Source of the DNA: an uncultured Shimia sp.
Lineage (GTDB): Bacteria; Pseudomonadota; Alphaproteobacteria; Rhodobacterales; Rhodobacteraceae
DNA length: 64,000 bases
NCBI RefSeq assembly: GCF_947493595.1
Contig: NZ_CANLRL010000008.1
Location: 1 to 64,000, forward strand
Direction of reading: 5' to 3'
Shown here: positions 45,700 to 61,505 of the stretch, one piece after another
Layout: each line of letters starts with the position of its first letter
Position numbering within the stretch: position 1 is the stretch's first letter
Notes under the pieces: generated by a model
What the model was told of the DNA's origin: nothing
The model's database searches: none
The model's input: only the letters and a program-made list of their open reading frames with translations
Program-made: the position numbers and the translations under genes

Positions 45700-47370
45700 T
45701 TATTTGGATACCTCGGGCAGCACGCGACCTGAAGCTCCGCTCGGCTGCGTTGTGCCAAACAAATCAGCGAGAGTGACCGCCACATCGGTGGTTGAAATGC
45801 GACGATCCACTTTACCAGTTGTGATGTTTTCGCCAGAGAAAATGACGGGAACATGTGTGTCATAGCGCCAGGGAGAACCATGCATTACCGCCACAGCCCC
45901 CGGGTCAAGCAGGAACGAGTACGCTGACTGCACGACGTAGACGTCGCCGGAGCGGGCCGGATGAAAATTGTTGCGGATTGGGTTTTCGACAAAATCGCCG
46001 CGCTGTTCATCCATGGGAACCTTGGGCACTGCTATGGCAATGCCTTCTCGGTCCGACATGGCTTGAACAATCAGGCGGTCAATCTCCCGCGGGTCAACGC
46101 CAGAGGCAGCAATGTTGGCGTGATCGTAGTAGATGTAAGGGCGGAAGAACGCCCTAATCGCATTTTCGACCCCCAGCGTTTTTTCAATTTCGGCGTTAAG
46201 GTCAAACATGATCGCCGTGTGGCCGTTGCGTGCGGTCTGATGCCCAAGGTTGGCCATAAACTCCGGCATTTCTGGCATGCCATGATCCGCCGACAATATG
46301 TAAAGCACGTTATCTCGCCCGACTTCGGCGTCCAAAAAGCCAAATAGATCTGCCAAGGTCAGATCCAGGACACGCACCATTTCTTCGCTTTCCAAGCTGG
46401 ACGGACCAAAGAAATGGTTAGATGCGTCAACACCAGAAAAACTGAGGCTCAGGTAATCAGGAAATGCGTCCTGCCCCAAGGATTCTGCCAAGACAGCAGC
46501 CTTTCCAAACTCAGCCGTTAGTTTGTCCCCCAACGGGCTAAGCAAAAGCTGTGTGTAGTACAGGCCATCTTCAGGGGTGCCGTAGGTATGCGGGAAGGTC
46601 ACCCCGAAGCCTTTCAAGTCAGTCTCATAGTCGCGGTCGTCGTTGGCCGCGAGCAGATAGCTGTCCTTGTCCGCATGTAGCGCCCATTGCTGACCAATCA
46701 TGGCGTCCGCTGGGCGCTTTGCGTTCCACTCCCTCACCCAGTCTGGGTATGTGTCGTAGTAATAAGCGCTGGTTTGATAGGCGCCGGTGTCCGTGCTCAT
46801 CCAAAAGGCCTTGCCGGATTTGCCAGCCATGGAAACAGAAGAACGGTCCTTGCCAGACACGCTGAACACTTTTGACATTCCATTGTTGGACTTGATCAGC
46901 TCGTCGCCAAAGGTTGACGCCAAAATGTTGAGAGGAGAGCGACCGTCAGATTGCGCAGCCGCTTGAGTGGCATCAACCTGGGCCCCGTCTTGATCAAACC
47001 CTTCGAGAGGCAGCAGGGGAAAGTTCGCATCCTCAATATTGTAAACCAATCGTCCGTCTGATGTGTCAAACCAAGCATTTCCGATCATGCCATGTTCTGA
47101 CGGATGTGCGCCCGTGGCCAATGTGGCATGCCCAACGATGGTCTCAGTATTGGCATGATCGTGATGCGCATCGGTGTACCACACGCCATTGTTGATCAGC
47201 CTCATGAAGCCATCTTCTGAGAACGACGGTTTATATCTGCTCAATAAATCGCCGCGCAGCCCATCCACAGTGATCTGTACAATCAAACGTGTGTCAGCAT
47301 GGACCGTTTGGCCTAGCAGGCCAATTGCGAATGCCGCACCGGATAGTTTGGACAAGGAGGATAAGGCCAT
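45700..47370 (-). CDS. Exported alkaline phosphatase superfamily enzyme (PafA-like)
   Basis: 556 residues with a signal peptide (about 1-25, QTVHA). Type I phosphodiesterase/PafA-like: QITVDGLRGDLLSRYKP with the metal Asp, the nucleophile Thr region HDHANTETIVGHATLATGAHPSEHGMIGN, LSLSFSGVDASNHFFGP, and SADHGMPEMPEFM with the second Asp-His metal pair. It hydrolyses phosphate mono- or diesters in the periplasm. It is the third gene of the unit beginning at 49363, 72 bp after sulfatase 2. Confidence 0.88.
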   Translation of the reverse strand: MALSSLSKLSGAAFAIGLLGQTVHADTRLIVQITVDGLRGDLLSRYKPSFSEDGFMRLINNGVWYTDAHHDHANTETIVGHATLATGAHPSEHGMIGNAWFDTSDGRLVYNIEDANFPLLPLEGFDQDGAQVDATQAAAQSDGRSPLNILASTFGDELIKSNNGMSKVFSVSGKDRSSVSMAGKSGKAFWMSTDTGAYQTSAYYYDTYPDWVREWNAKRPADAMIGQQWALHADKDSYLLAANDDRDYETDLKGFGVTFPHTYGTPEDGLYYTQLLLSPLGDKLTAEFGKAAVLAESLGQDAFPDYLSLSFSGVDASNHFFGPSSLESEEMVRVLDLTLADLFGFLDAEVGRDNVLYILSADHGMPEMPEFMANLGHQTARNGHTAIMFDLNAEIEKTLGVENAIRAFFRPYIYYDHANIAASGVDPREIDRLIVQAMSDREGIAIAVPKVPMDEQRGDFVENPIRNNFHPARSGDVYVVQSAYSFLLDPGAVAVMHGSPWRYDTHVPVIFSGENITTGKVDRRISTTDVAVTLADLFGTTQPSGASGRVLPEVSK

Positions 47371-47442: not shown

Positions 47443-49086
47443 TTACTTTGCTGGTTGCCAGCTCTGGAAAACTTCGCGTGCCTGAAGGCTCTCTGGCCGC
47501 AGGTTATCAATGCCTTCATAAGGCGTGTCTTTGCCAAGCGCCAAATGGGGATACTGTGCAATTGTCAGCTGGTGGCGTTTGACCATGTCCTGGAAGGACG
47601 CTCCGCCCCAAAGAGAGTACCCAACTTGAGCATGCTCTTCGCGAGGATCGCGATACAGGTTAAACACGTTGGCAGCGGCCCCAGGCTGGCCAGCAGCCGG
47701 CAAGTGCATCTTGAATTCCTGTTTCACGACTGAACGCAAAACAGGTCCCTCATACACATATACGTAATCGCGCCGACCATTTCCTTCACCTTCAAGCAGC
47801 AACGCCGTTTGATCGATGCCATCAATTACCCGGTCTCGGGGAATAAAGTCGGTGGCCCCGGCAATGCGCGCAAATGTGGTGAACAGGTCGGACACGTGGA
47901 ATATATCACCGGCCGCGCTACCCGGCTCAATGGCCGCTGGCCAGCGAATGAATGCGTCTGTGCGCACACCGCCTTCGAGGTGTTGCGTTTTACCGCCACG
48001 ATAGATCAACTGGTTAAACCCTGAGGAGCCCTCATAGTGATACATCAAACCGTTGTCGGCCATGATCATCACGATCGTGTTGTCAGCCTCACCGGTTTCC
48101 TCAAGTTTTGCCAACAGATCGCCAATCCAAGCGTCCAAGAGTTGCAGCTTGTCAGCATGGAAACCACCGTTGCGAGAAAGCGCTTCCTCTGGATACACAA
48201 AATTCAGAGGATAGAGCGGCCAATACTGTAAGAAAAACGGTTCGTCCTTGGCTGCTAGGCCTTCAAGTTGCTCCATAATCTGAAGCTGATAGCGCTCGTT
48301 CATCGCCTCATATTTGGCCTGTGTCCAAACTTCTCCAGGTTCCATGTCAACTTCGCGCGCAGTACCGCCCGCTTCACCTTCCACCCCCGTCACAAGACCG
48401 TAGGGCTTAAACCGCTGATCAAGCTGAAATTGATTGTTCTGACCGGCTTCCGCATACCCAAGCATATTGCCGGACCGCATGGCTTCTTCGGTCATAAGAC
48501 TTAGCTGCACTTGTTGATGCAGCGGAAAAGCGGCCCAATCAAAACCTTGGTTATGTGGGTAGGCCTCTTCAATATCCCCTTGGTGCCATTTCCCAACATG
48601 AGAGGTGTTGTAGCCAACCTCTTTCAGCAGCTCCGGAAGCGTCACCTCCTGCGCAGACAGGCCTTCGCCAACCAAAGCCACTTTCACCTCGTCGACGCCT
48701 GCACGAACTGGGTGACGCCCTGTTAGCATTGCCGTTCGTGTCGGAGTGCAAGAAGGCTCCGTGTACATGCGCATCAGCGACATGCCCTCTTGGGCAAAGT
48801 TATTGATGTTGGGCGTTTCAAATCCGGTCACATAGTTCATGGTCCGGTTGCCCATCTGACCAAAGCTGACATCATCAATTAGAATGTAGAGGAAATTCGG
48901 TGCCCCTCCGTTGGCGTCGCGAAGAACCTCAAGCTTTTGTTCAATTTTCACATCCTGAGCATCCCACTGTTCGCCAAATTGGGCGCGCAGGTATTGGTAT
49001 TCGCCATCGTGTACGATGGTGGACGTCTCTGCCAAAGCCGCTGACGCACAGAGCGCCAACGCTGACAGGGAGCTAAAAAGTTTCAT
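47443..49086 (-). CDS. Exported sulfatase 2 (formylglycine type)
   Basis: 547 residues from the ATG at 49086 with GGAGGG 7 nt upstream (an ATG five codons earlier has no site). Signal peptide about 1-19 (CASAALAE). Metal Asp pair in FLYILIDDVSFGQ, signature TEPSCTPTRTAML (C-x-P-x-R), HVGKWHQGD, and IVMIMADNGLMYH. It is closely similar in layout to sulfatase 1, with shared stretches such as GIDNLRPES and MYTEPSCTPTR, so they are paralogs. Second gene of the unit led by the small protein at 49363. Confidence 0.9.
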   Translation of the reverse strand: MKLFSSLSALALCASAALAETSTIVHDGEYQYLRAQFGEQWDAQDVKIEQKLEVLRDANGGAPNFLYILIDDVSFGQMGNRTMNYVTGFETPNINNFAQEGMSLMRMYTEPSCTPTRTAMLTGRHPVRAGVDEVKVALVGEGLSAQEVTLPELLKEVGYNTSHVGKWHQGDIEEAYPHNQGFDWAAFPLHQQVQLSLMTEEAMRSGNMLGYAEAGQNNQFQLDQRFKPYGLVTGVEGEAGGTAREVDMEPGEVWTQAKYEAMNERYQLQIMEQLEGLAAKDEPFFLQYWPLYPLNFVYPEEALSRNGGFHADKLQLLDAWIGDLLAKLEETGEADNTIVMIMADNGLMYHYEGSSGFNQLIYRGGKTQHLEGGVRTDAFIRWPAAIEPGSAAGDIFHVSDLFTTFARIAGATDFIPRDRVIDGIDQTALLLEGEGNGRRDYVYVYEGPVLRSVVKQEFKMHLPAAGQPGAAANVFNLYRDPREEHAQVGYSLWGGASFQDMVKRHQLTIAQYPHLALGKDTPYEGIDNLRPESLQAREVFQSWQPAK

Positions 49087-49108: not shown

Positions 49109-49363
49109 TCAGTGTGAGTTTCCGTCCCGTTTCCGGACCAATTCCGTTTGAATTTCTCGTCGCAAGTCTTCGAGGCTCTCGTTCAAATCTGCCAAGAATT
49201 GGTCATCGCCCACCTTACGGTGTTGGGCGGCCTTCAGAATTTCCAATTTGATCGCGGCAAAGTCGGCACAGGCTTCCTGAAAGGCTTCGTTGATGCGGCG
49301 CTCCGCACAAAGCCGTTCAAAGTCAGACGGGAAGTCCAAGAAAAGAATTTCATCTTCGGTCAT
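49109..49363 (-). CDS. Small acidic helical protein heading the sulfatase 2 operon
   Basis: 84 residues with GAGAGG upstream of the ATG at 49363. No signal or membrane segment, acidic and predicted helical: RINEAFQEACADF, FLADLNESLEDLRREIQTEL. It shares the pattern [IL]-x-E-A-[FY] and R-R-E-[IV]-x-x-E-L-x-R with the small protein at 52446. Both lie back to back with a TPR regulator and head an operon of exported hydrolases. An anti- or co-regulator role is possible (inference). Confidence 0.7.
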   Translation of the reverse strand: MTEDEILFLDFPSDFERLCAERRINEAFQEACADFAAIKLEILKAAQHRKVGDDQFLADLNESLEDLRREIQTELVRKRDGNSH

Positions 49364-49462
49364 GGTGACCTCTCAAACGATTTGAAAACAACTGCACATC
49401 AATCGAGAGCCAATTTACAGGTATCAGAGCGCATGTTACGGTAGCAAGCCTGTATTATCTCA

Positions 49463-50800
49463 TTGAAAGAAAAGTACTTTGGTGTGACTTCTGAAGCCGA
49501 AAGCCAAACCAACAAAATCGACGCAGCACATGACGAACTGCGCGCGGCACTGGCCACAGTGTTGAGCTCTAGCGAGTTTTCCGGATCCGCGCGGATGCAA
49601 AATTTTCTAAAGTATGTCGTCGAAGAGGCTCTCGCTGGCCGCGCGCAAAACATCAAAGCGAAAACCATCGGTATGGATGTACACGGCTACTCTCCGGATG
49701 AAATTTCGGACCGAGAGGGCGTTGTGCGAGTGGACGCAGGGCGTGTTCGACGAAAGCTCGCAAAATACTACGCAGAGGAAGGCCAATCTGACGCGATCAA
49801 GATTTATCTCCCAACTGGAAGATATGCTCCGGAGTTTTCAAGAAATGCCAGTGAGGAAACCGCTGAAGAGGTTCCGTCAAAACCACGCCTTGGCATTGCG
49901 GCAATTTCCGTTGTTGTTCCGATTATAGCTGTTGGAATTTGGATGGCTGGGCGCGCGACACATGACCTCCCTCCCCCCTCGATCACATCAATTGATCATA
50001 GCGAGATTTTTGACATTTCGCCGAACAGGGTGGAAGCCATTAATCTGGCGGTTAAAGCCCGCGGGTTGATCTTTCCGGCAACGGATGCGCAGAGGCTGAG
50101 CATTGCCCTCCAAGCCTTTCAAATTTCTATCGGCAAAGATAATGTCTATTTCGGCGGCTACGCGGGCGCAGCGCAGGTTTTGGCCAGCCTCGCGCTCATT
50201 GACCCTGATAGAGAGCGCGCAAAGAAGAACCTGGCTTTGGCGGCCCAGAATGGCAAAGAGGCCACCCGCTTGGCACCAGATGAGGCCTGGTCTTTATCGG
50301 CGCAGGCTTGGGTAGAATTTGCGGTACGCAATCACGGCAGTGCGCTGGAATTGTCGCAGCGGGCAGTCGCCCTCGCACCACTCGACCCGCACATTCTTGA
50401 ATTCGACTTTCTGATCTCCCTTTTTAATGGTCGTTTCCAACACATTCTGGACACGGCAACTCAGTTACCGGTCAGCGCAAAGAGTGTTCAGGGGTTCGTT
50501 TATTCCAACGCAATTGGGTCCGCACAGTACCACACAGGCGATTATGACAGTGCAATCCATAGCTTGGAGCAAGCGATTGCGGCGCAAGGCCCCTTTGGCC
50601 CAATTTCCTTGACTTATTTGACCGCCGCTTACCAAAGAGCTGGCGACACCGAAAACGCCAAATACCTGGCTTCCGTCATGATGAAGAATTGGCCACAAGC
50701 CAGACCGGACCTCCTGTTTTTTGCGTTGTTTTCCGATCCGGCGCCGGCACAGGATCTGTTGGATGCCATAACTGCGGCAGGGTGGCGTGTGCAGAATTAG
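49463..50800 (+). CDS. Membrane-anchored DNA-binding-like/TPR regulator 1
   Basis: 445 residues with a TTG start at 49463 (a GTG eight codons later is possible). The N-terminal domain (about 20-125), with LSSSEFSGSARMQNFLKYVVEEALAGRAQNIKAKTIGMDVHGY and VVRVDAGRVRRKLAKYY, is the type found in front of TPR or cyclase domains in alphaproteobacteria and looks winged-helix-like. A single membrane helix is near 150-168 (IAAISVVVPIIAVGIWMAG). Then a TPR-like part (about 205-440) lies outside. It looks like a transmembrane signal converter. Paralog of 51004. Confidence 0.8.
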   Translation: MKEKYFGVTSEAESQTNKIDAAHDELRAALATVLSSSEFSGSARMQNFLKYVVEEALAGRAQNIKAKTIGMDVHGYSPDEISDREGVVRVDAGRVRRKLAKYYAEEGQSDAIKIYLPTGRYAPEFSRNASEETAEEVPSKPRLGIAAISVVVPIIAVGIWMAGRATHDLPPPSITSIDHSEIFDISPNRVEAINLAVKARGLIFPATDAQRLSIALQAFQISIGKDNVYFGGYAGAAQVLASLALIDPDRERAKKNLALAAQNGKEATRLAPDEAWSLSAQAWVEFAVRNHGSALELSQRAVALAPLDPHILEFDFLISLFNGRFQHILDTATQLPVSAKSVQGFVYSNAIGSAQYHTGDYDSAIHSLEQAIAAQGPFGPISLTYLTAAYQRAGDTENAKYLASVMMKNWPQARPDLLFFALFSDPAPAQDLLDAITAAGWRVQN

Positions 50801-51003
50801 GAATACAGTAAGCGCCAACCCTTTCTGCGGTAGTCTGTCATTGCTGTATGTCGCCGCCCCGCATTTTTGTTGAACGCTTTGCCCATTGGAGCCGAGCGAA
50901 GCGCGGCCCGCTTGATTGGAGCAACGATTTTGGAAACATCTCAAACCAGAAGCCTACGCCTGATAAGCTCAAGAAACGTACCTTGAGGCAACCAGCCTTA
51001 TTG

Positions 51004-52350
51004 TCAGTTATCAACTTTCTGCAACACGCTCAGTATGGTTTTCTCTACGTGAGACCCATCCGCGAACATCGCGTTCACCACAAAGGCCGCCGGAAAATGA
51101 GGCCATGTGTGATTGAGCTCGGCCATCAACGCTTGGGCTTTATCCGGCTCGGCCATCTGATCAAACGCGACAGCTTGGAACAACAAGGACGGCGGGCTCA
51201 CAGGTGCGCCAGCTGCCGCCGCCCCCTGAAAAGCCGCCACCGTTTCCGGGTAATTTTGCAACATTAGCTGGGACACCGCCCAAATATTGCGGGAGCCAAA
51301 ACGCCCAACCCCTTCCCGGAAAATCTTCGGGTCGCTGGCACGTGCCGCCAATGCGGCGTCATCGGCCATAATCGCGGCCATCCCCACCAAATCCAAAACA
51401 TGGCCGTCCTCCGGCGCAAGCTCCAAAGCAATCCGCGCATGTTTGAGCGCATCCTCAGGCTCTTGGCGCGCCGCTAGAACGAAGGCCATCGCCCCATTTG
51501 CCCAGGCATTTGTTGGTGCGATATCTAGCGCCTTTTGCGCCGCGGCAAACGCTTCGCCTCGGGCGTCAGACGCGGCTTCGCGATCCGGCGAGAATAAGCC
51601 GATCACAGCCAGCGTCTGCGCTTCCCCAGCATGTCCATCCGGCAAAGAGGCGTCCAGATCAATCGCATGCCGGAACATGCCCAGCGCCAATTCTTGCCGT
51701 TTCAGATCGAACACCGGAAACAACATGCCTTGCGCCTGCTGGGCCATATTTTTGGCCTGTAGAGACAACATCGAATGCTCACGTAACGCCACGCGCGCAG
51801 GATCATGCTGCTCCACTGCCAAAGCCTCCTCTGGGACGGGGCGCCACAGAACAGCCACCAGAACGATAAGCGCCGCGATCACGCCGCCCCCCACGAGCAC
51901 AGACGGGTTGATCTTGCGCTCCGCCGGCGCGGGACCCTGCTGCACCTCCGCATTCCCAGCGTCCATCGACTGCGGTACGGCCACCTCAAAGCGTGGATGA
52001 TAGCCGCCTGGATCAACAACAATGTGCACCGGCGCATCTTTGCCTTCGCCTGCGTTGTACTCGGCCAGAAGCCGACGTAAGCGCCGCGCCTCCACACTCA
52101 CCAGGTTGAGGCCGGCGTCTTTTTCAAGTTTGCGCCCATAGACATCAACGGCCACCGACTTGCCACGGATGTCCGCCCCGCGCCCTTCCAGCGTTTCGCT
52201 GACAATATACCTTAAAAAGTCCTGTAAACGAGGCGATCCCTCAAATCCGGAGCTGACCAATACATGCTCCAGGGCACTTTTGATCAACGCCTCAGATTCG
52301 ACGATAAAGTCCTGTTCTGAATCTATTTTTTGCAACTGACTCACACTCAA
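51004..52350 (-). CDS. Membrane-anchored DNA-binding-like/TPR regulator 2
   Basis: 448 residues with a TTG start at 52350. Same architecture as 49463: N-terminal domain LVSSGFEGSPRLQDFLRYIVSETLEGRGADIRGKSVAVDVYGR and VEARRRLRRLLAEY-like segment, ending PVHIVVDPGGYHPRFE; one membrane helix near 152-170 (VLVGGGVIAALIVLVAVLW); then a periplasmic TPR-like region with AIDLDASLPDGHAGEAQTLA, AQKALDIAPTNAWANGAMAF, ARIALELAPEDGHVLDLV. Divergent from the small protein at 52446 by 95 bp. It probably controls the DUF3299/MBL/HlyD operon (inference). Confidence 0.8.
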   Translation of the reverse strand: MSVSQLQKIDSEQDFIVESEALIKSALEHVLVSSGFEGSPRLQDFLRYIVSETLEGRGADIRGKSVAVDVYGRKLEKDAGLNLVSVEARRLRRLLAEYNAGEGKDAPVHIVVDPGGYHPRFEVAVPQSMDAGNAEVQQGPAPAERKINPSVLVGGGVIAALIVLVAVLWRPVPEEALAVEQHDPARVALREHSMLSLQAKNMAQQAQGMLFPVFDLKRQELALGMFRHAIDLDASLPDGHAGEAQTLAVIGLFSPDREAASDARGEAFAAAQKALDIAPTNAWANGAMAFVLAARQEPEDALKHARIALELAPEDGHVLDLVGMAAIMADDAALAARASDPKIFREGVGRFGSRNIWAVSQLMLQNYPETVAAFQGAAAAGAPVSPPSLLFQAVAFDQMAEPDKAQALMAELNHTWPHFPAAFVVNAMFADGSHVEKTILSVLQKVDN

Positions 52351-52445
52351 CTCACCCCAAGCTCATGGTGACTCACTTATGCCGAAGACTCAAATCGGCG
52401 CACGTTATGAGTGTTCAGATGGTATTCGCCGGTGGTGTAGAGTCA

Positions 52446-52670
52446 ATGTCCAACCTCGAAGAAGATCTCCCGCATCTTGCGGTCTCGATACGTGCTGCTC
52501 TTCCGGGCAACGCCCCTTTGAGCGAGGCCTATGATGACTATCAATTCGCCTGCCAAAACCAAAAGGCCCCCGACATCAGCGACGCCGAGCGCGCCGAATG
52601 GACCCGTATCCGACGCGAGGTCGCAGATGAACTCGCCCGTCTCTGTCAACGTGCCAAGGAGCCCAAATGA
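52446..52670 (+). CDS. Small acidic helical protein heading the DUF3299/MBL operon
   Basis: 74 residues from the ATG at 52446 (ribosome site weak; upstream in-frame starts at 52407 and 52365 exist). Helical and acidic: LSEAYDDYQF, AERAEWTRIRREVADELARL. Its C-terminal IRREVADELAR parallels LRREIQTELVR of the 49109 gene, so they are probably homologs in matching positions. Its stop overlaps the next start by 4 bp (ATGA), so translation is coupled. Confidence 0.65.
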   Translation: MSNLEEDLPHLAVSIRAALPGNAPLSEAYDDYQFACQNQKAPDISDAERAEWTRIRREVADELARLCQRAKEPK

Positions 52671-53359
52671 TGCCGCTTTCGATCACATTTATTAATCCGT
52701 GGCGACATACGGTTCGGACCTTCGTCTTGGCCATTGGTTTTCTGTTTTCCCAAATTGGAGACAGCTTGGCTGCAGAGCCACGTAACCTTGGTTGGGACGA
52801 TCTGGTGCCATTGGTCACGGTCGGAGAAAACCCTTTTGAAGCGCTCGATTTTCGTCAAAAGAATGACTTGGCCAAACTCTATCGCATCGAGGTGAAAGAA
52901 GCCGCAACAGCCAGCAGCTTTGAAAAGTCTCAAGCAAAGGCCATTCGGGACAGCCTGTCGGCAGATGGTCTCGATGCCGATTGGTATTTTGCAGAGCGTG
53001 AGCGTTTGATGGCGGAACATACTCGGCAGTTTAACGCGCCAAACCCAGAGGTTTTGGCTCAGTCCGTGCGCGTGCCGGGCTACATCCTACCGCTGGAAAT
53101 GGATGGTGTCTTGGCGGTCGAGTTCTTGCTGGTCCCCACGGTTGGGGCTTGTGTGCATACCCCGCCACCGGCGGCCAACCAACTTATCCACGTCCGCTAC
53201 CCGAAAGGTTACCCCCTTAGAGGCATGTACGATCCTGTCTGGATCATCGGTGAATTGAAGGCGGAAACTCAGGTCGAAATGGTCTCCTACTCGGACGGCC
53301 AACGGCACGTGCAGTCCAGCTATGTGATGACCGCATTTGAGGTCGAGCAATACCAGTAG
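52667..53359 (+). CDS. DUF3299-family protein
   Basis: 230 residues. A signal-like hydrophobic stretch at about 18-36 (TFVLAIGFLFSQIGDSLAA), then NLGWDDLVPLV, a helical middle, and a C-terminal domain SVRVPGYILPLEMDGVLAVEFLLVPTVGACVHTPPPAANQLIHVRYP. This is the DUF3299 pattern (G-Y-x-x-P-L ... F-L-L-V-P ... G-A-C-x-H-x-P-P-P-x-x-N-Q). The conserved Cys and His suggest metal binding. It is probably lipid-free and periplasmic. Function unknown; co-transcribed with the MBL-fold hydrolase. Confidence 0.82.
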   Translation: MMPLSITFINPWRHTVRTFVLAIGFLFSQIGDSLAAEPRNLGWDDLVPLVTVGENPFEALDFRQKNDLAKLYRIEVKEAATASSFEKSQAKAIRDSLSADGLDADWYFAERERLMAEHTRQFNAPNPEVLAQSVRVPGYILPLEMDGVLAVEFLLVPTVGACVHTPPPAANQLIHVRYPKGYPLRGMYDPVWIIGELKAETQVEMVSYSDGQRHVQSSYVMTAFEVEQYQ

Positions 53360-53417
53360 GCGCTGTCACGCTTCTCCCTACCCCCCATTTTCCACAAAAT
53401 CCGTTCAGGAGGATAAC

Positions 53418-54857
53418 ATGAAAAAAATCAGAGCATTGGGGGTTGCGGCCCTCACATCCTTGTCACTTGCAGGTTGGGGGCACGCGCAACAAATCCCAGC
53501 ACCCGCAGAACCTTCTTCCCCAGAAGACATTCAGAGTGCGCTTCTGGGCGGTGTGCCAAACGGGCGCTGGAAAGAAGGCCTGATGTTTGAAGGCATTTCG
53601 CCTCAGCCTTGGCTTCAAAGCGCCGCGAACTGGTTCCCGGGGACCGAAGAAGTCCAGCCAGAAGAAATGCGTATCACCTTTATGGGTACGGCCCCTCTGC
53701 TGCGTCCGGGGCAGATGAACACCTCTGTGTTTGTGGAGCTTGGCAATGGCGACAACTTCATCTTCGACATCGGCGAAGGCTCTGTTGCCAACTATCAGGC
53801 CGCACGAATTGCCCTCAATGAACTGACAGATGTCTTCCTGACCCACCTGCACGTCGACCACTTTGGTGCGCTGCCCTACCTGTGGATGTTCCGCACCTGG
53901 AACGGCGGTTGGCACGAGCCCCTGCGCATCCACGGCCCATCAGGTCGCACGCCAGAATATGGCACCGCGGCCATGGTCGAGGGCATGAAGATGATGACCG
54001 CCTGGCACCGCGATGCCTTTAGCGTCTTTCCAACCGGTACAGGTTGGGACATCGAGGTCAACGAGTTCGATTTTGCGGACAACGGTGGCATCATTTACGA
54101 GAAAAACGGCGTGACCGTACGCCACTGGCAACGCAGCCACGCAAAAGACGGCGCCACTGCGTACCGTCTTGACTGGAATGATCTTTGTTTTGTCTGGACC
54201 GGCGACGGGCGCCCCAACCTTCTGGATGTAGAATACGCCAAAGGCTGTGATGTCTATATCACCGAACAGCAGCAGGAAGTTGTGGAAATCAACTCCGGTG
54301 TTCAGGGTGTGCCGCCTTTCCTCGCGCGCTACACGATCGACACCCACCACACGCCAACCTATGCGGCGGGCTATATTGCCAACCTGATCCAACCGCGTCT
54401 CTTCATGACCACCCACATGAGCTACGACAAATATTTGCTGGAAGAGTCCGTGGCCGAAATCCGCGAACACTGGAAAGGCCCGTTCCACTTTGGGGCGCCT
54501 GATGGGATCGTTGTGAACGTGACAAAGGATCAAATCTGGGTCCGCGAAGGCATCTTGCCGGAATTCCCCAACGTGCGTGCGCCACAGTTTGACTTCACCA
54601 ATGAACAGCTGGTTGTGCCTGCGCCGCCACATGCGCGCGAAGACATCCAAAATGCTGAAGTGCGCGAGACCGAACTCGATCCAGAGCTCTACTACCCGGA
54701 AGGCTACCATCCGGAGTTGCTCCCCTTCTGGCCGGTCGAAGGCGATCTTGTTGTGCCCATGGAAATGATGCCTGAGACACTCAAAAACAGCATGGGCGCA
54801 GCCTGGCGCCATCGCGAAAAGAACCGCGCAGTGCTGAAAGAGATGGGCAAGTTCTAA
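53418..54857 (+). CDS. Exported metallo-beta-lactamase-fold hydrolase
   Basis: 479 residues from the ATG at 53418, with AGGAGG upstream. Signal peptide to about residue 23 (AGWGHAQ). MBL motif LTHLHVDHFGALPYLW (HxHxDH) about 135-150, later Asp and His ligands in LCFVWTGDGRPNLLDVEY and FMTTHMSYDKYLLE. An additional C-terminal segment of about 130 residues is unusual for short MBL enzymes. Proteins of this shape have been annotated as MBL-fold hydrolases, some linked to guanitoxin genes (GntH); I cannot verify that relation. It probably hydrolyses an ester in the periplasm. Confidence 0.88.
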   Translation: MKKIRALGVAALTSLSLAGWGHAQQIPAPAEPSSPEDIQSALLGGVPNGRWKEGLMFEGISPQPWLQSAANWFPGTEEVQPEEMRITFMGTAPLLRPGQMNTSVFVELGNGDNFIFDIGEGSVANYQAARIALNELTDVFLTHLHVDHFGALPYLWMFRTWNGGWHEPLRIHGPSGRTPEYGTAAMVEGMKMMTAWHRDAFSVFPTGTGWDIEVNEFDFADNGGIIYEKNGVTVRHWQRSHAKDGATAYRLDWNDLCFVWTGDGRPNLLDVEYAKGCDVYITEQQQEVVEINSGVQGVPPFLARYTIDTHHTPTYAAGYIANLIQPRLFMTTHMSYDKYLLEESVAEIREHWKGPFHFGAPDGIVVNVTKDQIWVREGILPEFPNVRAPQFDFTNEQLVVPAPPHAREDIQNAEVRETELDPELYYPEGYHPELLPFWPVEGDLVVPMEMMPETLKNSMGAAWRHREKNRAVLKEMGKF

Positions 54858-54938: not shown

Positions 54939-56048
54939 GTGCTTATTGTACTTGGCGCCTATTTTGGCCTGATCTGGTTGATTTTCTCGAAGTTCCAGCT
55001 GCTGCCTTGGAACGCTGTCACAAAAGGGGTGACCTACTTTACCGCGCTTGTCATTGCTTTGGTCGTTATTGGTTTGCTCAATCACACGACCCCTACCGGC
55101 CCGATCTCCGTGCAAGGGGCGGTTGTGGAAATCAAGCCCAACATCGGCGGCACCGTCACACATGTAGACGTCACGCCCAATACGCCGGTCGGCAAGGGGG
55201 ATCTGCTGTTCACCATTGACGCGGCGCCACAAGAAGCCGACCTCGCCATAGCGCAAGCCGGTTTGGAAACCGCTAAGGCAACCGCCGATCAACTGGAAAC
55301 CGACCTCATCGCTGTGATCTCGGAAATCGAAGGGCTCGAAGCCCAGCTGGCGTTTGGCATCCAACGGCGCGATGACATCATCCGGCTCGAGGAACGCGGT
55401 GCCTCCACCGGCTTCCAGATGCAGGAAGCGGTCACCACAATTGACCAGCTCTCCGCTGCCATCCGGGGCGCACAGGCGCGCAAGGCTAGCCTAGAACGCC
55501 GCATCTCAGCCCAGATTGACCAAATAGACGTCGGCGTTGTCGATGCGCGCGGCAAACTTGCCAAAGCAGAATGGGCATTGGCCCAAACCGTGGTCCGCGC
55601 TCCGTCTGACGGAGAAGTCACCGCACTTGATCTTCGGGTCGGCGACAGGGTGTCCCCGATCAACGGGGCGGTCAACTTCGCCTCCCAAAGCGACCGCGCG
55701 CTTGTGGCCACTTTGCCCCAATCCAGTCGTGGCAACGTCCAGGTTGGCGATACCGTCCGCATTGCCTTACGCACCCTGCCCGGTCAGGAGTTTTCCGCCC
55801 CAATCTCCGCCATTCCCCTTGGCAGCGCAGAGGGCGCCTTTGCCCCAAGAAACGGCCTACCGTCCTTACGTGAAATCAGCGGAGGTTCCCGCTTCATCAT
55901 CAGAGTCGACATTCCCGACGACGTGCCACCGGAGGCGCTGCAACTCGGCGCCTCTGGCACTGTTCTGATCATCACCGAAGAAGCCGGCGCTATAGCGGCC
56001 CTTGCCAAAGTTCTGTTCTGGGTCACTCGCATGATGAATTTCATCTGA
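54939..56048 (+). CDS. HlyD/EmrA-type membrane fusion protein
   Basis: 369 residues, GTG start with AGAGGA upstream. Two N-terminal membrane segments (about 1-18 and 30-50), then a biotinyl-lipoyl-like half motif (VQGAVVEIKPNIGGTVTHVDVTPNTPVGKGDLLFTID), a helical hairpin (about 95-190) and the matching half VVRAPSDGEVTALDLRVGDRV, then a beta-barrel domain. This is the periplasmic adaptor of an efflux system. No transporter partner follows, so it is an orphan adaptor (YibH-like). Likely co-regulated with the MBL gene upstream. Confidence 0.88.
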   Translation: MLIVLGAYFGLIWLIFSKFQLLPWNAVTKGVTYFTALVIALVVIGLLNHTTPTGPISVQGAVVEIKPNIGGTVTHVDVTPNTPVGKGDLLFTIDAAPQEADLAIAQAGLETAKATADQLETDLIAVISEIEGLEAQLAFGIQRRDDIIRLEERGASTGFQMQEAVTTIDQLSAAIRGAQARKASLERRISAQIDQIDVGVVDARGKLAKAEWALAQTVVRAPSDGEVTALDLRVGDRVSPINGAVNFASQSDRALVATLPQSSRGNVQVGDTVRIALRTLPGQEFSAPISAIPLGSAEGAFAPRNGLPSLREISGGSRFIIRVDIPDDVPPEALQLGASGTVLIITEEAGAIAALAKVLFWVTRMMNFI

Positions 56049-56472: not shown

Positions 56473-58155
56473 TCAGAGGAGTTTGGGAATCCGCTTCAAA
56501 TCAATAATTCGGTACTTTTTCATCAGAGGGTTCGGGTAATCGGGTTCCGCCAATAGTGAAAGCTCGAAGTCTGGCTCCAGTTCCTTGAGGCGTAGAAGCG
56601 TTTTTCCTGCGGCGTCGGTATCTCCCAATGCAAGATGGGTTGCCAGAAGGTACCTTAGAGTTGGTGCAAAGTCTGGCTTGTAGCTGAGAGAAGTCGCGCC
56701 GTAGGCGATCGCATTTTGAAAGTCACCACTCAGCATTTCGGCAATACAGGAATAGCAGTCTATCAAATAGCGATAAGGCGCTTCGCCGGTCGTATTTCTG
56801 GCTTTGGCAATGCTCTGGCGGCCTTCCTCAAGACGACCCAGGTTGATCAGCGCAACGCCACGAAACATCCATCCCAAGGGATTATTTGACTGCAGTTTCA
56901 CGCTACGGTCGGCAAGTTCGAAAGCACTGTGATGGTCGCCCAACGTAAAGGCGTTGACATGTGAACACAGCGCCAAAACCAGCGCGTTATGCGGTTCAAG
57001 CAAAAGGGCTTGGTGCACAAGTTCGCGCATCTCTTCAGGCATGGTGTCGCGATCATGGGATTTGCGGCCACCAATCACGTAGGTCGACAGAAATGCTCTC
57101 CAAGCAAGAAAGACGCCGTGTTGGGTGGACTTGTATTCTTCCTCAAAGACGCTGGACAACATGTCAAACGAGTCACCATGAGTTGCAAACATGCGCTCGA
57201 TTGCTTGAATCGCGGCATTGGCGTTGCGTGGCGTCAAGCCGGTCGAGTCAAATGCAACAGTTGTGACCGTTCTATCAATGGCTTCGTTAATGAGCCTGGT
57301 CAGATTGTTGCGAATACCCGCCCTCTCCCCGATATCAAATTCAAGCGCGCTACGCCAAAGGGTGCTGCCATTTTCAACATCTTTCATGGCGATTTGGACG
57401 TAAGTGTCTTGTTCTATCCGGGTTTCATCGACCTCTAGCAGAAGCGTGTTGGCAGGCGGGCGAGCCGGCATAACGTTGCGTATGTCCAGTGGCAGCCAGT
57501 CACTTACCCCACTTGAAACAGCGCTTGCCAGATGCTTGGAAAGCGAGCCCGCCGTCTCTGAATATGACAACACCAGAGTTCGCGGAACCTTTGTATCGCA
57601 CCTGTCTTTTGGTCTGGGCGCGATCGGAGGTTTCGCATCATATTCCGACCGCCGATCCCTCAGCCAGTTGGTAAATTCAGGGTCTTTGACAGTGTTGCCT
57701 TCAAGGAACTCGCGGTTGCGGGTGAATGCCCGTTCCGTCGGTCCGTTTTCATCGCAGTCCGTTTCAAAAAGCGACTTGTCCAACCATACCAGTGTTCTGT
57801 CACTGTTCAGAATCTGACCAAAATCGCGGAATCCCTTTTTTAATCCGGAAATCTCCTGACGAAGGCTGGCGGCGCCTTGCTCTTGTTCTCGGTCGCTCCA
57901 GAGCAGGTCTTGTAGTGTCGATCTGGGGCGGCAAAATTCAGGCGCAACGAGCAGAAACGCCAGCATTCCTTGGGCTTTTTGCGAGTGAGGAGTAATGTTT
58001 GATCCGTCAGGAGCGAAGACCCGCAGTCCCCCAAAAGTTACAAACGAGAATTTCTTCGCTCCAAATTTCGTCGATTCCATGCTATTGTCTGGGTCGGACA
58101 TTTTGAATGGTTCCACGCGCGCTGGGGGTGACTGCAACACTGGTTCGTCCCCCAT
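56473..58155 (-). CDS. SARP-like transcriptional regulator with TPR domain
   Basis: 560 residues if it starts at 58155; in-frame ATGs at 58101 and 58080 are alternatives, and no start has a strong ribosome site. The N-terminal DNA-binding part (about 35-125: FVTFGGLRVFAPDGSNITPHSQKAQGMLAFLLVAP...LLWSDREQEQGAASLRQEISGLKK) is the OmpR-like winged helix of SARP/AfsR regulators. The middle (190-290) resembles an adenylate-cyclase-associated sensor segment. The C-terminal part (about 300-540) has TPR repeats (NPLGWMFRGVALINLGRLEEGRQSIAKA). Cytosolic: no membrane helix. Divergent from the haloperoxidase-like gene; likely its regulator. Confidence 0.85.
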   Translation of the reverse strand: MGDEPVLQSPPARVEPFKMSDPDNSMESTKFGAKKFSFVTFGGLRVFAPDGSNITPHSQKAQGMLAFLLVAPEFCRPRSTLQDLLWSDREQEQGAASLRQEISGLKKGFRDFGQILNSDRTLVWLDKSLFETDCDENGPTERAFTRNREFLEGNTVKDPEFTNWLRDRRSEYDAKPPIAPRPKDRCDTKVPRTLVLSYSETAGSLSKHLASAVSSGVSDWLPLDIRNVMPARPPANTLLLEVDETRIEQDTYVQIAMKDVENGSTLWRSALEFDIGERAGIRNNLTRLINEAIDRTVTTVAFDSTGLTPRNANAAIQAIERMFATHGDSFDMLSSVFEEEYKSTQHGVFLAWRAFLSTYVIGGRKSHDRDTMPEEMRELVHQALLLEPHNALVLALCSHVNAFTLGDHHSAFELADRSVKLQSNNPLGWMFRGVALINLGRLEEGRQSIAKARNTTGEAPYRYLIDCYSCIAEMLSGDFQNAIAYGATSLSYKPDFAPTLRYLLATHLALGDTDAAGKTLLRLKELEPDFELSLLAEPDYPNPLMKKYRIIDLKRIPKLL

Positions 58156-58213: not shown

Positions 58214-59497
58214 ATGGATGGAATTCGAAACGCTGGCTCAGGTCCGCTCAATGCAGGCAACGCGGGAAACGCTGGAAATGCAGGCAACGCCGGGAATGCA
58301 GGCAATGCCGGAAACGCGGGCAATGCCGGTGGAGAAACGGTCTCTCCTTTCACGTCTGGCGCGCTTCTTCGAAATCGTGACGGGATCGTTGGGAACTGGC
58401 AAGAGCTCCAAAACGCTCCACGGCAACATGCTTTTGGGGACCCGCAGAATGCAGGCCTGTGGTCGGATCGCGTTAGGCAGGTCATTTTTGTTCAACAATT
58501 ACTGCAGCCTTTGGAATTTGCGCAGAGCGCAGAAACTGCTGAAACAGAGGAAGAACAAGAAGATTTGAATGACAAGGGGGGCTGGGCCACGTTGTGGCAC
58601 CGCGGCCCAATTCTCACTACGCCGCTGGAGGATATGCCAACGTTTGGCAGTTCTGCCCAGCGGCTTTTTGCAATGCGACGCCCGGGGCGAGAATTGTTTC
58701 GCGCCCAGATGGAATGGGTGAACCGCTATGCAGATCTGCGCGCGGATCGGTCTGTCGAGATCATGTCCGAGATCAACGACATAATGACGTTTTTTGCGTC
58801 GATCATGACAATGCCGTTTCCCCGGATGCGCCACACGAACGAGCTGCTCTTGGCGGTGCAATCGGCCGTAGTCGCAATCGAGATGCGGTTCAAGGATGCG
58901 ATGGCCTGCAGGCGTCCCTCTGAATTCTCGCCTCAAGACCAACCTCTGATCGTGACACCCGGTCATTCAAGCTTGCCCAGTGGTCACGCAACTGAATCAT
59001 TTGCGGTCGCCACCGTTATGAGAGCTCTGGCGATTCACCGTGAAAGTGCGCAAGCGACGGCAGGGGGCGCGTCAGGCCCCAGCGCGACCCACACCGAAAT
59101 CCAGTTGATGCGACAAGCCTATCGGATCGCTGTAAACCGAACCGTGGCAGGTGTGCATTTCCCAGTGGACTCGGCGGCTGGTGCTTATCTTGGTATGGCG
59201 CTTGGACGATACTTTGTGCAGCGTTTTCAAAAAGCGTCCGATGCTCCCGAGGTTGTCGATTGGACCGTTGATTCCTATGTTTTCAATGGCCCGGCATACA
59301 GCTCTACAGCCATGCCCGGCGTTTCTCCCGACTTTATACCGGCACTTGCGGAGGCCACGCTGGAAAGCGGCGGCGCGTCCGAGACCAACGCCGAAAATCC
59401 CGCATATGTGCGGGAAGACAACCCGATCCAGATCACCGGAACAGGTTCGGCTGAACTGGGGCTTTTGTGGAAAAATGCCCTAGACGAGTGGAGGTAG
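58214..59497 (+). CDS. Vanadium haloperoxidase / PAP2-superfamily protein with NAG-repeat N-terminus
   Basis: 427 residues. Residues 13-39 are nine Asn-Ala-Gly triplets. The C-terminal half carries the vanadate/phosphate site: KDAMACRRPSEFSP (K-x6-R-P), LPSGHATES (PSGH) and NRTVAGVHFPVDSAAG (R-x5-H-x3-D). This set defines the PAP2/vanadium haloperoxidase superfamily; the length and spacing suit haloperoxidases. No signal peptide is evident. Activity, as a halogenating peroxidase or phosphatase, cannot be told from sequence. Four bp upstream of the subtilase gene. Confidence 0.85.
   Translation: MDGIRNAGSGPLNAGNAGNAGNAGNAGNAGNAGNAGNAGGETVSPFTSGALLRNRDGIVGNWQELQNAPRQHAFGDPQNAGLWSDRVRQVIFVQQLLQPLEFAQSAETAETEEEQEDLNDKGGWATLWHRGPILTTPLEDMPTFGSSAQRLFAMRRPGRELFRAQMEWVNRYADLRADRSVEIMSEINDIMTFFASIMTMPFPRMRHTNELLLAVQSAVVAIEMRFKDAMACRRPSEFSPQDQPLIVTPGHSSLPSGHATESFAVATVMRALAIHRESAQATAGGASGPSATHTEIQLMRQAYRIAVNRTVAGVHFPVDSAAGAYLGMALGRYFVQRFQKASDAPEVVDWTVDSYVFNGPAYSSTAMPGVSPDFIPALAEATLESGGASETNAENPAYVREDNPIQITGTGSAELGLLWKNALDEWR
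58250..58330 (+). repeat. Nine 9-bp tandem units encoding Asn-Ala-Gly
   Basis: Units such as AATGCAGGC, AACGCGGGA and AATGCCGGT repeat nine times. Codons vary at third positions, so the peptide repeat is kept while the DNA diverged; this is not recent slippage alone. The repeat probably forms a flexible or collagen-like segment. Confidence 0.9.
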
Positions 59498-59501
59498 GGC
59501 G

Positions 59502-61505
59502 ATGAGTATCGCCTGGTCGGACCCAATTGAGTTGTCGCCGGCTGAAAATGCTCAGGACTCCGCTCAGCACTGGCTATTCGTTCCACCCCAGTCGGATGAA
59601 GACAACGAAGACTACAAGGAGCTCATTGTTGCCTACACATTCGTGTTCAATTCCAATGACGTATACAATGAATTCAAGAATGATTTTTTGCCGGATGGTG
59701 ATGGCGAAACCAAGGTGGTGTTTCCAGAAGGCTTGACGCCGCTAAATGTCTCAGAAGACGAAGGCCTTTTGATGGTCGGGTTTGCCAAGCTTGGCAGCCT
59801 TTCGACCATTTATGCCGAACTGATCCGACGTGAAGCCGGCGACATGTTCCTGACCGGCCTTCCAGTCGAAAACACTGATTTTCTTGCAGCTGGGGAAAAG
59901 TTAACTGGCGTCACTCCTGACGATAACATTGTGGCGATCATTGACACCGATATCGCTTTCGCCAATGCACGATTTCGCGAGTCCGTCACAAAAACGCGCA
60001 TAGGGGCTTATTGGGATCAGGACGCAAGTTCGGGCGTGACAAATCCGTTGTTTCTCGGTCGCGCGATACGGGCCTCCGAAATTGATACGTTACTGGGAAC
60101 CTTCAACCAGGACGGCAACGTCGATGAACATGCGCTCTATGCCCAATATTATTCTGAAAGCTACGGTCCAGGTTCTTACCATCGCCTGCCGACACGGATG
60201 GGGCATGGCACCCACGTGCTTGACGTGATGACCGGTGGGGATGGATCTGACAGTATTATCATTGCCGTCGACCTGCGCAGCGAAGCGGTGAACGCGACGC
60301 AGGGGAATTTTATCTTTCCCTGGGTGGCAATGGCTTTGATCTGGGTTTCAGGGCTGACCAGCACGGGTCAAACTCCACATATCAACTACAGTTTCGGCGG
60401 TCTCGCTGGACGCCATGACGGCAAGGGGCCGTTGGAAATCCTCTTAGACTTGATGTTGCTGTTCTCTAGGGCGTCTGCGATCACGGTGCCAGCCGGCAAT
60501 TTTTATGACACTGAAACCCACGCCAGCTTCCTCGGCAGCGACTTGCAATCTCAAAAAACACTCGGCTGGAATATTCAGCCTGATGACGGCACATCAAACG
60601 CTTTGGAAGTGTGGCTGCCTTTATGTGACGAGAACAACCCGCAGATCTCCTTGACCCTCACGACGCCCGGCGGTGATTTCAGTCTGACCGTCACCGATGC
60701 CGAACTTGGTACGTACCACGAGTTGCTCGATGGAGAGACGCTTCTGGCCCGTGTGTATGTTCAATGCGTTGGCATTTTCGGGGCAGATGCACGCGCGCGC
60801 ATCGCGATCTACACGCGCCACACAGCAATAGACCGGGACTACTATCAGATGCACGGCGGCAGGCCCGACCTCGCCGGTCGCTGGACAATCAGCCTGACAG
60901 CTTTGTCGCTAACGGATGACGATAAAGTCGAGTTGTGGATCGAGCGGGATGACAAATTGGGGCATGCCAAAAATGGCGCGAGACAATCTTATTTCGAAGC
61001 ACAGCGCCCTGTCTGGCCGGAAGTGGAGACGGAGCCGGTCTTTATCCGTAACGATGGAACAACATCTGATCTTTCTACGGGGGCACAAACGCTTGTCGCT
61101 GCTGGCTCGATCCGTAACTCCCGCCAACCCGCCCTATATTCCAGCGAAGGATTTGATCGTCCTGTAACATTTCCACCGACGGCGGCGGCGATATGTGACG
61201 ACAGCCGCGTCCATCGGGGCGTCCTTGCCAGTGGGTTCTTCAGCGGAAGCACAGTGCCAATGAACGGCACAAGCGTCTCCAGCGCTGTTGTCGCCCATAT
61301 TGTCGGTGAGCGGCTCGCTGCAGGCCAGCCGGTGACGCGCGCAAGTATCGGGAATTTGGCCTCAGTTGACGACGGACGAAATATACCCCCCTCCGCTCCG
61401 ATACACCCATTATTTCAAACCTACGATCCGACCCCTCCTGAAACCCGGATTGGCCGCGGCTGCCTCAGTTCGGGGTGGACACGTCTGCCGCGGTTTGAAG
61501 TTTGA
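59502..61505 (+). CDS. Subtilase (S8 family) with divergent long N-terminal region
   Basis: 667 residues; GGAGGTAGGG precedes the ATG, 4 bp after the haloperoxidase stop. Catalytic triad visible: Asp148 in IIDTDIAF, His235 in GHGTHVLDVM, Ser591 in MNGTSVSSAVV; the oxyanion Asn is in VPAGNFYD. A 140-residue N-terminal region precedes the catalytic domain and a long insert (about 340-570, WIERDD, ALEVWLPL) separates Asn from Ser. No signal peptide is obvious, so it may act in the cytosol or be exported by a non-Sec route. Operon partner of the haloperoxidase-like protein. Confidence 0.88.
   Translation: MSIAWSDPIELSPAENAQDSAQHWLFVPPQSDEDNEDYKELIVAYTFVFNSNDVYNEFKNDFLPDGDGETKVVFPEGLTPLNVSEDEGLLMVGFAKLGSLSTIYAELIRREAGDMFLTGLPVENTDFLAAGEKLTGVTPDDNIVAIIDTDIAFANARFRESVTKTRIGAYWDQDASSGVTNPLFLGRAIRASEIDTLLGTFNQDGNVDEHALYAQYYSESYGPGSYHRLPTRMGHGTHVLDVMTGGDGSDSIIIAVDLRSEAVNATQGNFIFPWVAMALIWVSGLTSTGQTPHINYSFGGLAGRHDGKGPLEILLDLMLLFSRASAITVPAGNFYDTETHASFLGSDLQSQKTLGWNIQPDDGTSNALEVWLPLCDENNPQISLTLTTPGGDFSLTVTDAELGTYHELLDGETLLARVYVQCVGIFGADARARIAIYTRHTAIDRDYYQMHGGRPDLAGRWTISLTALSLTDDDKVELWIERDDKLGHAKNGARQSYFEAQRPVWPEVETEPVFIRNDGTTSDLSTGAQTLVAAGSIRNSRQPALYSSEGFDRPVTFPPTAAAICDDSRVHRGVLASGFFSGSTVPMNGTSVSSAVVAHIVGERLAAGQPVTRASIGNLASVDDGRNIPPSAPIHPLFQTYDPTPPETRIGRGCLSSGWTRLPRFEV

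Follow-up and report, generated by a model that had tools for sequence, protein, structure and literature searches.

What does a small acidic protein do when its gene stands back to back with that of a membrane regulator and opens an operon for exported enzymes? The question is raised twice within the window, the 64,000-nucleotide stretch of an uncultured Shimia sp. that was analysed here (bases 1-64000 of contig C8 in a 4.28-Mb assembly, which GTDB places in one family with the roseobacter loci compared here). At locus A the regulator RegA faces away from the gene of small A, and at locus B its paralog RegB faces away from that of small B. As read from the open reading frames (ORFs), RegA on the plus strand and RegB on the minus strand are convergent, each with its own small gene at its back; all coordinates are collected in Table 1. 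We consider it probable that each pair is a membrane switch, in which a ToxR/CadC-like regulator works with a cytoplasmic partner encoded by the operon.

Pairing of the regulator and the small gene

Relatives of RegA were present in 20 of the 149 genomes of the family, and the regulator N-terminal domain, at an E-value of 1e-10, in 10 of the 289 genomes of the class and 26 of the 398 of the phylum. A model of the small protein was seeded from seven loci and initially searched over the first loci, with 5,783 ORFs; within the first family set it placed a small gene in 11 of 12 RegA-like loci, and one further locus of this set has no regulator domain. A scan of named genomes gave 78 loci, whose 13,965 ORFs were searched at an E-value of 1e-2; nine of these loci had already been in the first set, on which the model was trained. 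The search found the small gene in 75 of the 78, with 76 copies for 79 regulators. Every one of these 76 genes is divergent and lies less than 300 bp from the start of a regulator domain, and none of the matches listed from this search lies away from a regulator. The original prediction had proposed such divergent pairs in front of exported-hydrolase operons and had made the idea depend on conservation in relatives, where the pairing was indeed kept. A named Ruegeria plasmid has the same gene order, with the regulator and the small gene both annotated as hypothetical. The pairing is old and conserved in marine bacteria, and neither gene has a known role.

Parallel divergence

Pairwise distances of the small proteins in 44 non-redundant loci correlate with those of the regulators, with coefficients of 0.68 for the DNA-binding domain and 0.76 for the TPR part; for the domain, 500 permutations gave no value as high. 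For the 32 loci with a sulfatase as the first gene, the correlation between the small protein and the regulator domain is 0.72 with the sulfatase held fixed, while that between the small protein and the sulfatase is -0.18 with the regulator held fixed. Because the divergence of the small protein tracks the regulator and not the sulfatase, the comparison favours the regulator rather than the cargo as its partner.

Regulators

RegA and RegB share 29% identity over nearly their full length (E 4e-45), which bears out the original prediction of paralogs with an N-terminal domain, one membrane helix and TPRs. The N-terminal domain, with a mean column identity of 58% in 29 sequences, lacks a dedicated Pfam model. 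Trans_reg_C is matched weakly by 5 of the 29 members (best E 5e-4), and an hhalign comparison with a Trans_reg_C profile, built from nine Trans_reg_C proteins of the same genome, gave a probability of 46% (E 2e-4) at the stretch of the recognition helix. A search of the sequences of solved structures with the regulator-domain profile A2 returned a single match, at E 0.62. A membrane-grade stretch (hydropathy > 1.6) follows the N-terminal domain in all 77 regulators measured, and around this hydropathy-based helix lysine and arginine amount to 2.9 before it versus 1.3 after it. TPR_2 was detected in 48 of 58 family members, with the TPRs occupying the region after the helix; the TPR matches of RegA and RegB themselves are each below the Pfam cut-offs. 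Taken together, the weak likeness to Trans_reg_C, the membrane stretch with its charge bias and the TPRs are the reason why the regulators fit a ToxR/CadC-like receptor with a predicted OmpR-type winged helix.

The TTG starts that the original prediction pointed out are the first start codons of both regulators, but they are no family trait, as 12 of the 78 relatives have TTG as their sole upstream start in frame. In L132, the locus of the closest RegA ortholog (Shimia sagamensis), the reading frame offers two starts up to the domain, an ATG located 19 codons before it and a GTG at its first codon, and therefore the true start of RegA (TTG at 49463 or later) is uncertain. A third, far-diverged regulator relative without a small partner was observed in the Shimia genome studied (L005, 5045-6421). 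The closest relative of RegB (L050, 5992-7367, genome G038) is split over two reading frames, with its DUF3299 and MBL neighbours intact at 64% and 90% identity.

Small proteins

Both small ORFs evolve as coding sequence: the differences at codon positions 1/2/3 are 15/17/44 for small A against the Shimia sagamensis locus and 22/23/39 for small B against L050. The proteins are acidic, with a median isoelectric point (pI) of 4.7 and 75 of 76 below pI 6, and none of the 76 has a membrane-grade stretch (KD19 > 1.6). A Cys-x-[DEH]-aromatic motif is found in 72 of the 76 and is absent from small B and its clade.

It was found that the R-R-E and [IL]-x-E-A-[FY] motifs on which the original prediction based the likeness of the two proteins are present in both (RREIQTELVR and INEAF in small A, RREVADELAR and LSEAY in small B). 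The similarity beyond these motifs is no more than suggestive. BLAST gave none between the two proteins (E 0.84), and a family model built without the small proteins of the RegB clade scored small A at E 2e-22 and small B at E 0.5. A profile-profile comparison of the small A family and the small B clade produced a 40-column alignment in the expected register, with a probability of 29% (E 6e-4), against 0.6% for a control with the regulator domain. With these values, small B, which has the same position in its locus, is only probably related to the small A family.

By profile comparison the small A family is a distant relative of DUF465/YdcH (PF04325). The hhalign probabilities are 96.7% and 96.4% over 73-74 columns, with 1.6% and 0.1% in the controls against the regulator domain, but the comparison is biased towards similarity because the 12 DUF465 rows, all of which match PF04325, were chosen among the hits of the small-protein profile A1. 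The Pfam model itself matches none of the 22 members of alignment A1, and DUF465 is not among the 25 families listed, out of 43, for alignment A5. The match of the small B clade is weak (6.7%, E 0.005). Profiles A1 and A5, searched against the sequences of solved structures, matched only helical or coiled-coil look-alikes, and the DUF465 structure 1zhc was unlisted for A5.

Divergent promoter

In 75 loci the domain starts are 178-291 bp apart, with a median of 204. We compared 78 intergenic stretches, those of loci A and B and 76 others from the named loci, with 50 dinucleotide shuffles. The palindrome TnnTAC-n(1-4)-GTAnnA occurs in 33 of the 78, against a mean of 0.56 in the shuffles, and its core ACSGT in 69 against 25.9, although the shuffles overstate the significance of the palindrome because the loci are related. 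The variants TGCTAC-n-GTAGCA and TGTTAC-nnn-GTAACA have co-varying half-sites and track groups of regulators. At locus A, TGYTACSGTARCA has its single occurrence in the 4.28-Mb genome (49434-49446). We infer that this palindrome is a candidate operator for the regulator there. Sigma-70 promoters by consensus were also considered and dropped as too weak.

Cargo and history of the two loci

The cargo was defined as the first gene of at least 140 amino acids behind the small gene, with the three unpaired loci counted among the 78. Sulfatases take this place in 51 loci, GntH-like MBL proteins in 11 and DUF3179 proteins in 9; one locus has an HlyD protein there, another an outer-membrane-like protein, and the remaining 5 have none of these types. 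In the window, small A is followed by the sulfatase and the PafA-like enzyme, and small B by the DUF3299 protein, the MBL hydrolase and the HlyD protein; these names and their ORF coordinates agree with those first assigned. A tree of 82 regulators requires 13 changes of cargo label compared with 28.6 in shuffles, and thus the cargo is fairly stable but not fixed. Five distant relatives (L217, L218, L219, L220 and L224) have the pair near DUF3604, DUF1254/DUF1214, DUF2955 and DUF3141 proteins. The GntH model would name the MBL protein (listed ORF 53337-54857) a guanitoxin-pathway enzyme; this name may be too specific, since MBL relatives occur in operons with the regulator pair in 11 of the 78 loci.

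In the same tree two groupings have support of 100/100, that of RegA with the Shimia sagamensis regulator and that of RegB with two MBL-associated regulators. Members of both clades are on different contigs in genome G038, and the ortholog locus of Shimia sagamensis has one regulator only within 13 kb. The original prediction spoke of a duplicated regulatory head; taken as a local tandem duplication of RegA and RegB, this was rejected on the separate, well-supported clades, the different cargo, the contigs of G038 and the lone Shimia sagamensis regulator. Loci A and B are ancient paralogs.

Proposed mechanism and its alternatives

In the mechanism that we propose, the regulator would be a one-component receptor with a diverged OmpR-type winged helix in the cytoplasm, a membrane helix and a periplasmic TPR sensor, to which a periplasmic signal would be presented. 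It would bind a site, at locus A presumably the palindrome, in the promoter of about 100 bp common to the regulator and the divergent operon, and would control, by activation or repression, the operon and probably also itself. The first gene of the operon would give a small, acidic, helical DUF465-related protein that stays in the cytoplasm and acts, through physical contact, as a dedicated partner of the regulator, most likely as a feedback modulator reporting the expression of the operon. The cargo, whether sulfatase, MBL hydrolase or DUF3179 protein, would be exchangeable while the pair persists. A wider version, that a branch of DUF465/YdcH proteins serves as cytoplasmic co-regulators of membrane-anchored transcription factors, reports operon expression, possibly via the Cys-x-Asp motif, and is reused with its regulator for different exported enzymes, is offered tentatively, as the less likely outcome.

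The small protein might instead serve the cargo, as a chaperone that acts on the exported hydrolase in the cytoplasm or helps in its assembly, with its adjacency to the regulator following from nothing more than its position as the first gene. A sulfatase is the first sizeable gene behind it in most loci, and like many chaperones it is small, acidic and probably helical. However, the small gene is kept before unrelated cargo, namely the MBL and DUF3179 proteins, and at distant loci it stands near the DUF3604, DUF1254/1214, DUF2955 and DUF3141 proteins; L157 and L160 keep the sulfatase without it. The varied cargo and the missing correlation with sulfatase divergence (-0.18) led us to reject a chaperone as the first choice, and we regard it as quite improbable. 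It is also unlikely that the small gene is just a passenger, whether its role is a general DUF465-like one or that of a leader that aids translation, with no specific tie to the regulator. DUF465 proteins do occur in many genomes lacking the regulator, and 28 of the 29 loci L059-L087 showed no regulator domain in their flanks, but L059 was later found beside a regulator, and a passenger would not be expected in divergent adjacency in 75 of 78 loci, in parallel divergence with the regulator, or with a Cys-x-[DEH]-aromatic motif that is present in 72 of 76 and absent from small B and its clade. As for the palindrome, it might be a symmetric -10 element shared by two divergent promoters that overlap, or be bound by another protein, which we regard as rather unlikely. 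TACSGTA reads TAnnnT on both strands, and the hexamers TTTACA-N17-TACGGT, read by eye, are directed at RegA. On the other hand, no such element is in the promoter-scan output, the symmetry spans 13 bp, the half-sites co-vary while the spacer changes from 1 to 4 between groups, and the palindrome is unique in the genome.

Several observations weigh against the membrane switch with its cytoplasmic partner. Three loci (L157, L160 and L204) keep the regulator and the cargo and have no small gene. The pairing is looser among other, mostly longer, regulator relatives: of the 15 such loci in the family set, 8 have the small gene, and the longer relatives of the class and phylum sets are paired in the flank in 7 of 41 loci, beyond which L222 and L223 have a small gene that is more distant or in the same direction. 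The third regulator relative of the Shimia genome itself is unpaired, and in genome G170, of the same genus, no small gene was found beside three regulators of about 520 amino acids (L091, L100 and L101). The partial correlation of the small protein is 0.48 with the TPR part and 0.13 with the DNA-binding domain, and contact with the cytoplasmic domain is thus not favoured. On the side of the promoter, the relatedness of the loci behind the palindrome counts, the possible place of the symmetric core in a bidirectional -10 element and the intergenic stretch of locus B, which has no match to the palindrome pattern, point the same way.

If the membrane switch is real, membrane one-component regulators can carry a cytoplasmic partner encoded by the operon, unlike the periplasmic partners of ToxS type, in a co-component design that places the partner within the cell. 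It would tie a DUF465-related protein, from a family of unknown function, to one candidate molecular partner and one testable promoter, and would suggest how sulfatases and other exported enzymes of marine roseobacters may be controlled.

Comparison with known systems

HilA/BTAD-type TPR regulators join an OmpR-type DNA-binding domain to TPRs and are not known to have a membrane helix or a small divergent partner. RegA and RegB resemble these regulators in the predicted domain and the TPRs and differ by the membrane helix and the small partner. According to PMC9214523, CadC has an N-terminal DNA-binding domain, a membrane helix and a periplasmic sensor that includes a TPR-like helical domain. 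RegA and RegB follow the same plan as CadC/ToxR-like regulators, with a predicted N-terminal DNA-binding domain, a single membrane helix and a putative C-terminal periplasmic sensor, but differ in the weak Trans_reg_C match, the TPRs standing alone and the divergently encoded cytoplasmic small protein. ToxR/ToxS and VtrA/VtrC likewise combine a membrane-tethered transcription factor with an adjacent small partner gene; there the partner is membrane-bound, periplasmic and lipocalin-like, and its gene lies downstream in the same direction, often overlapping (PMC9214523). In contrast, the small genes here are divergent (76 of 76) and their acidic products have no membrane stretch (0 of 76). HP1242, a DUF465/YdcH protein (PDB 1zhc), is described in PMC3397514 as fully helical and coiled-coil-like, with unknown function. 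The small A family differs from DUF465 by its conserved Cys-x-Asp and the lack of a Pfam match, and within the 78-locus set it is always beside the regulator. The original prediction called the pair undescribed; judging by titles and the openings of abstracts, no description was found in the open-access collection searched, which leaves out most subscription journals.

Gene layout and neighbouring genes

Table 1. Features of loci A and B in the window (positions in the window).
Feature	Position	Strand	Remarks
RegA	49463..50800	+	Divergent OmpR-like domain at the N-terminus (about 49532-49843), then one membrane helix and a predicted periplasmic TPR region; start uncertain
Small A	49109..49363	-	84-amino-acid acidic protein, distant DUF465 relative, operon gene 1
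Palindrome TGTTACGGTAGCA	49434..49446	.	Divergent promoter of locus A; candidate operator
Sigma-70-like TTTACA-N17-TACGGT for RegA, read by eye	49414..49442	+	Overlaps palindrome; absent from promoter-scan output
Exported sulfatase	47443..49086	-	C-T-P-T-R in active-site stretch (by eye); an ATG inside the listed ORF is assumed as start
PafA-like exported phosphodiesterase/phosphatase	45700..47370	-	NF042991 378 bits, below the cut-off of 650
RegB	51004..52350	-	Paralogous regulator, MBL/DUF3299 clade
Small B	52446..52670	+	74-amino-acid acidic protein, probable relative of small A
DUF3299 protein	52667..53359	+	Domain search
MBL-fold hydrolase	53418..54857	+	NF041257 (GntH) 554 bits, above the cut-off of 333; an ATG inside the listed ORF is assumed as start
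HlyD-type adaptor	54939..56048	+	Domain search

Beyond the features of Table 1, positions 56473-58155 encode a 560-amino-acid protein with C-terminal TPRs, whose N-terminal part looks SARP-type by eye. Behind it, on the opposite strand, are a PAP2-superfamily protein (58214-59497) and a subtilase-like protein (59502-61505). The N-terminus of the PAP2 protein (58214-58380) contains a tandem NAG amino-acid repeat, the copy number of which is possibly variable.

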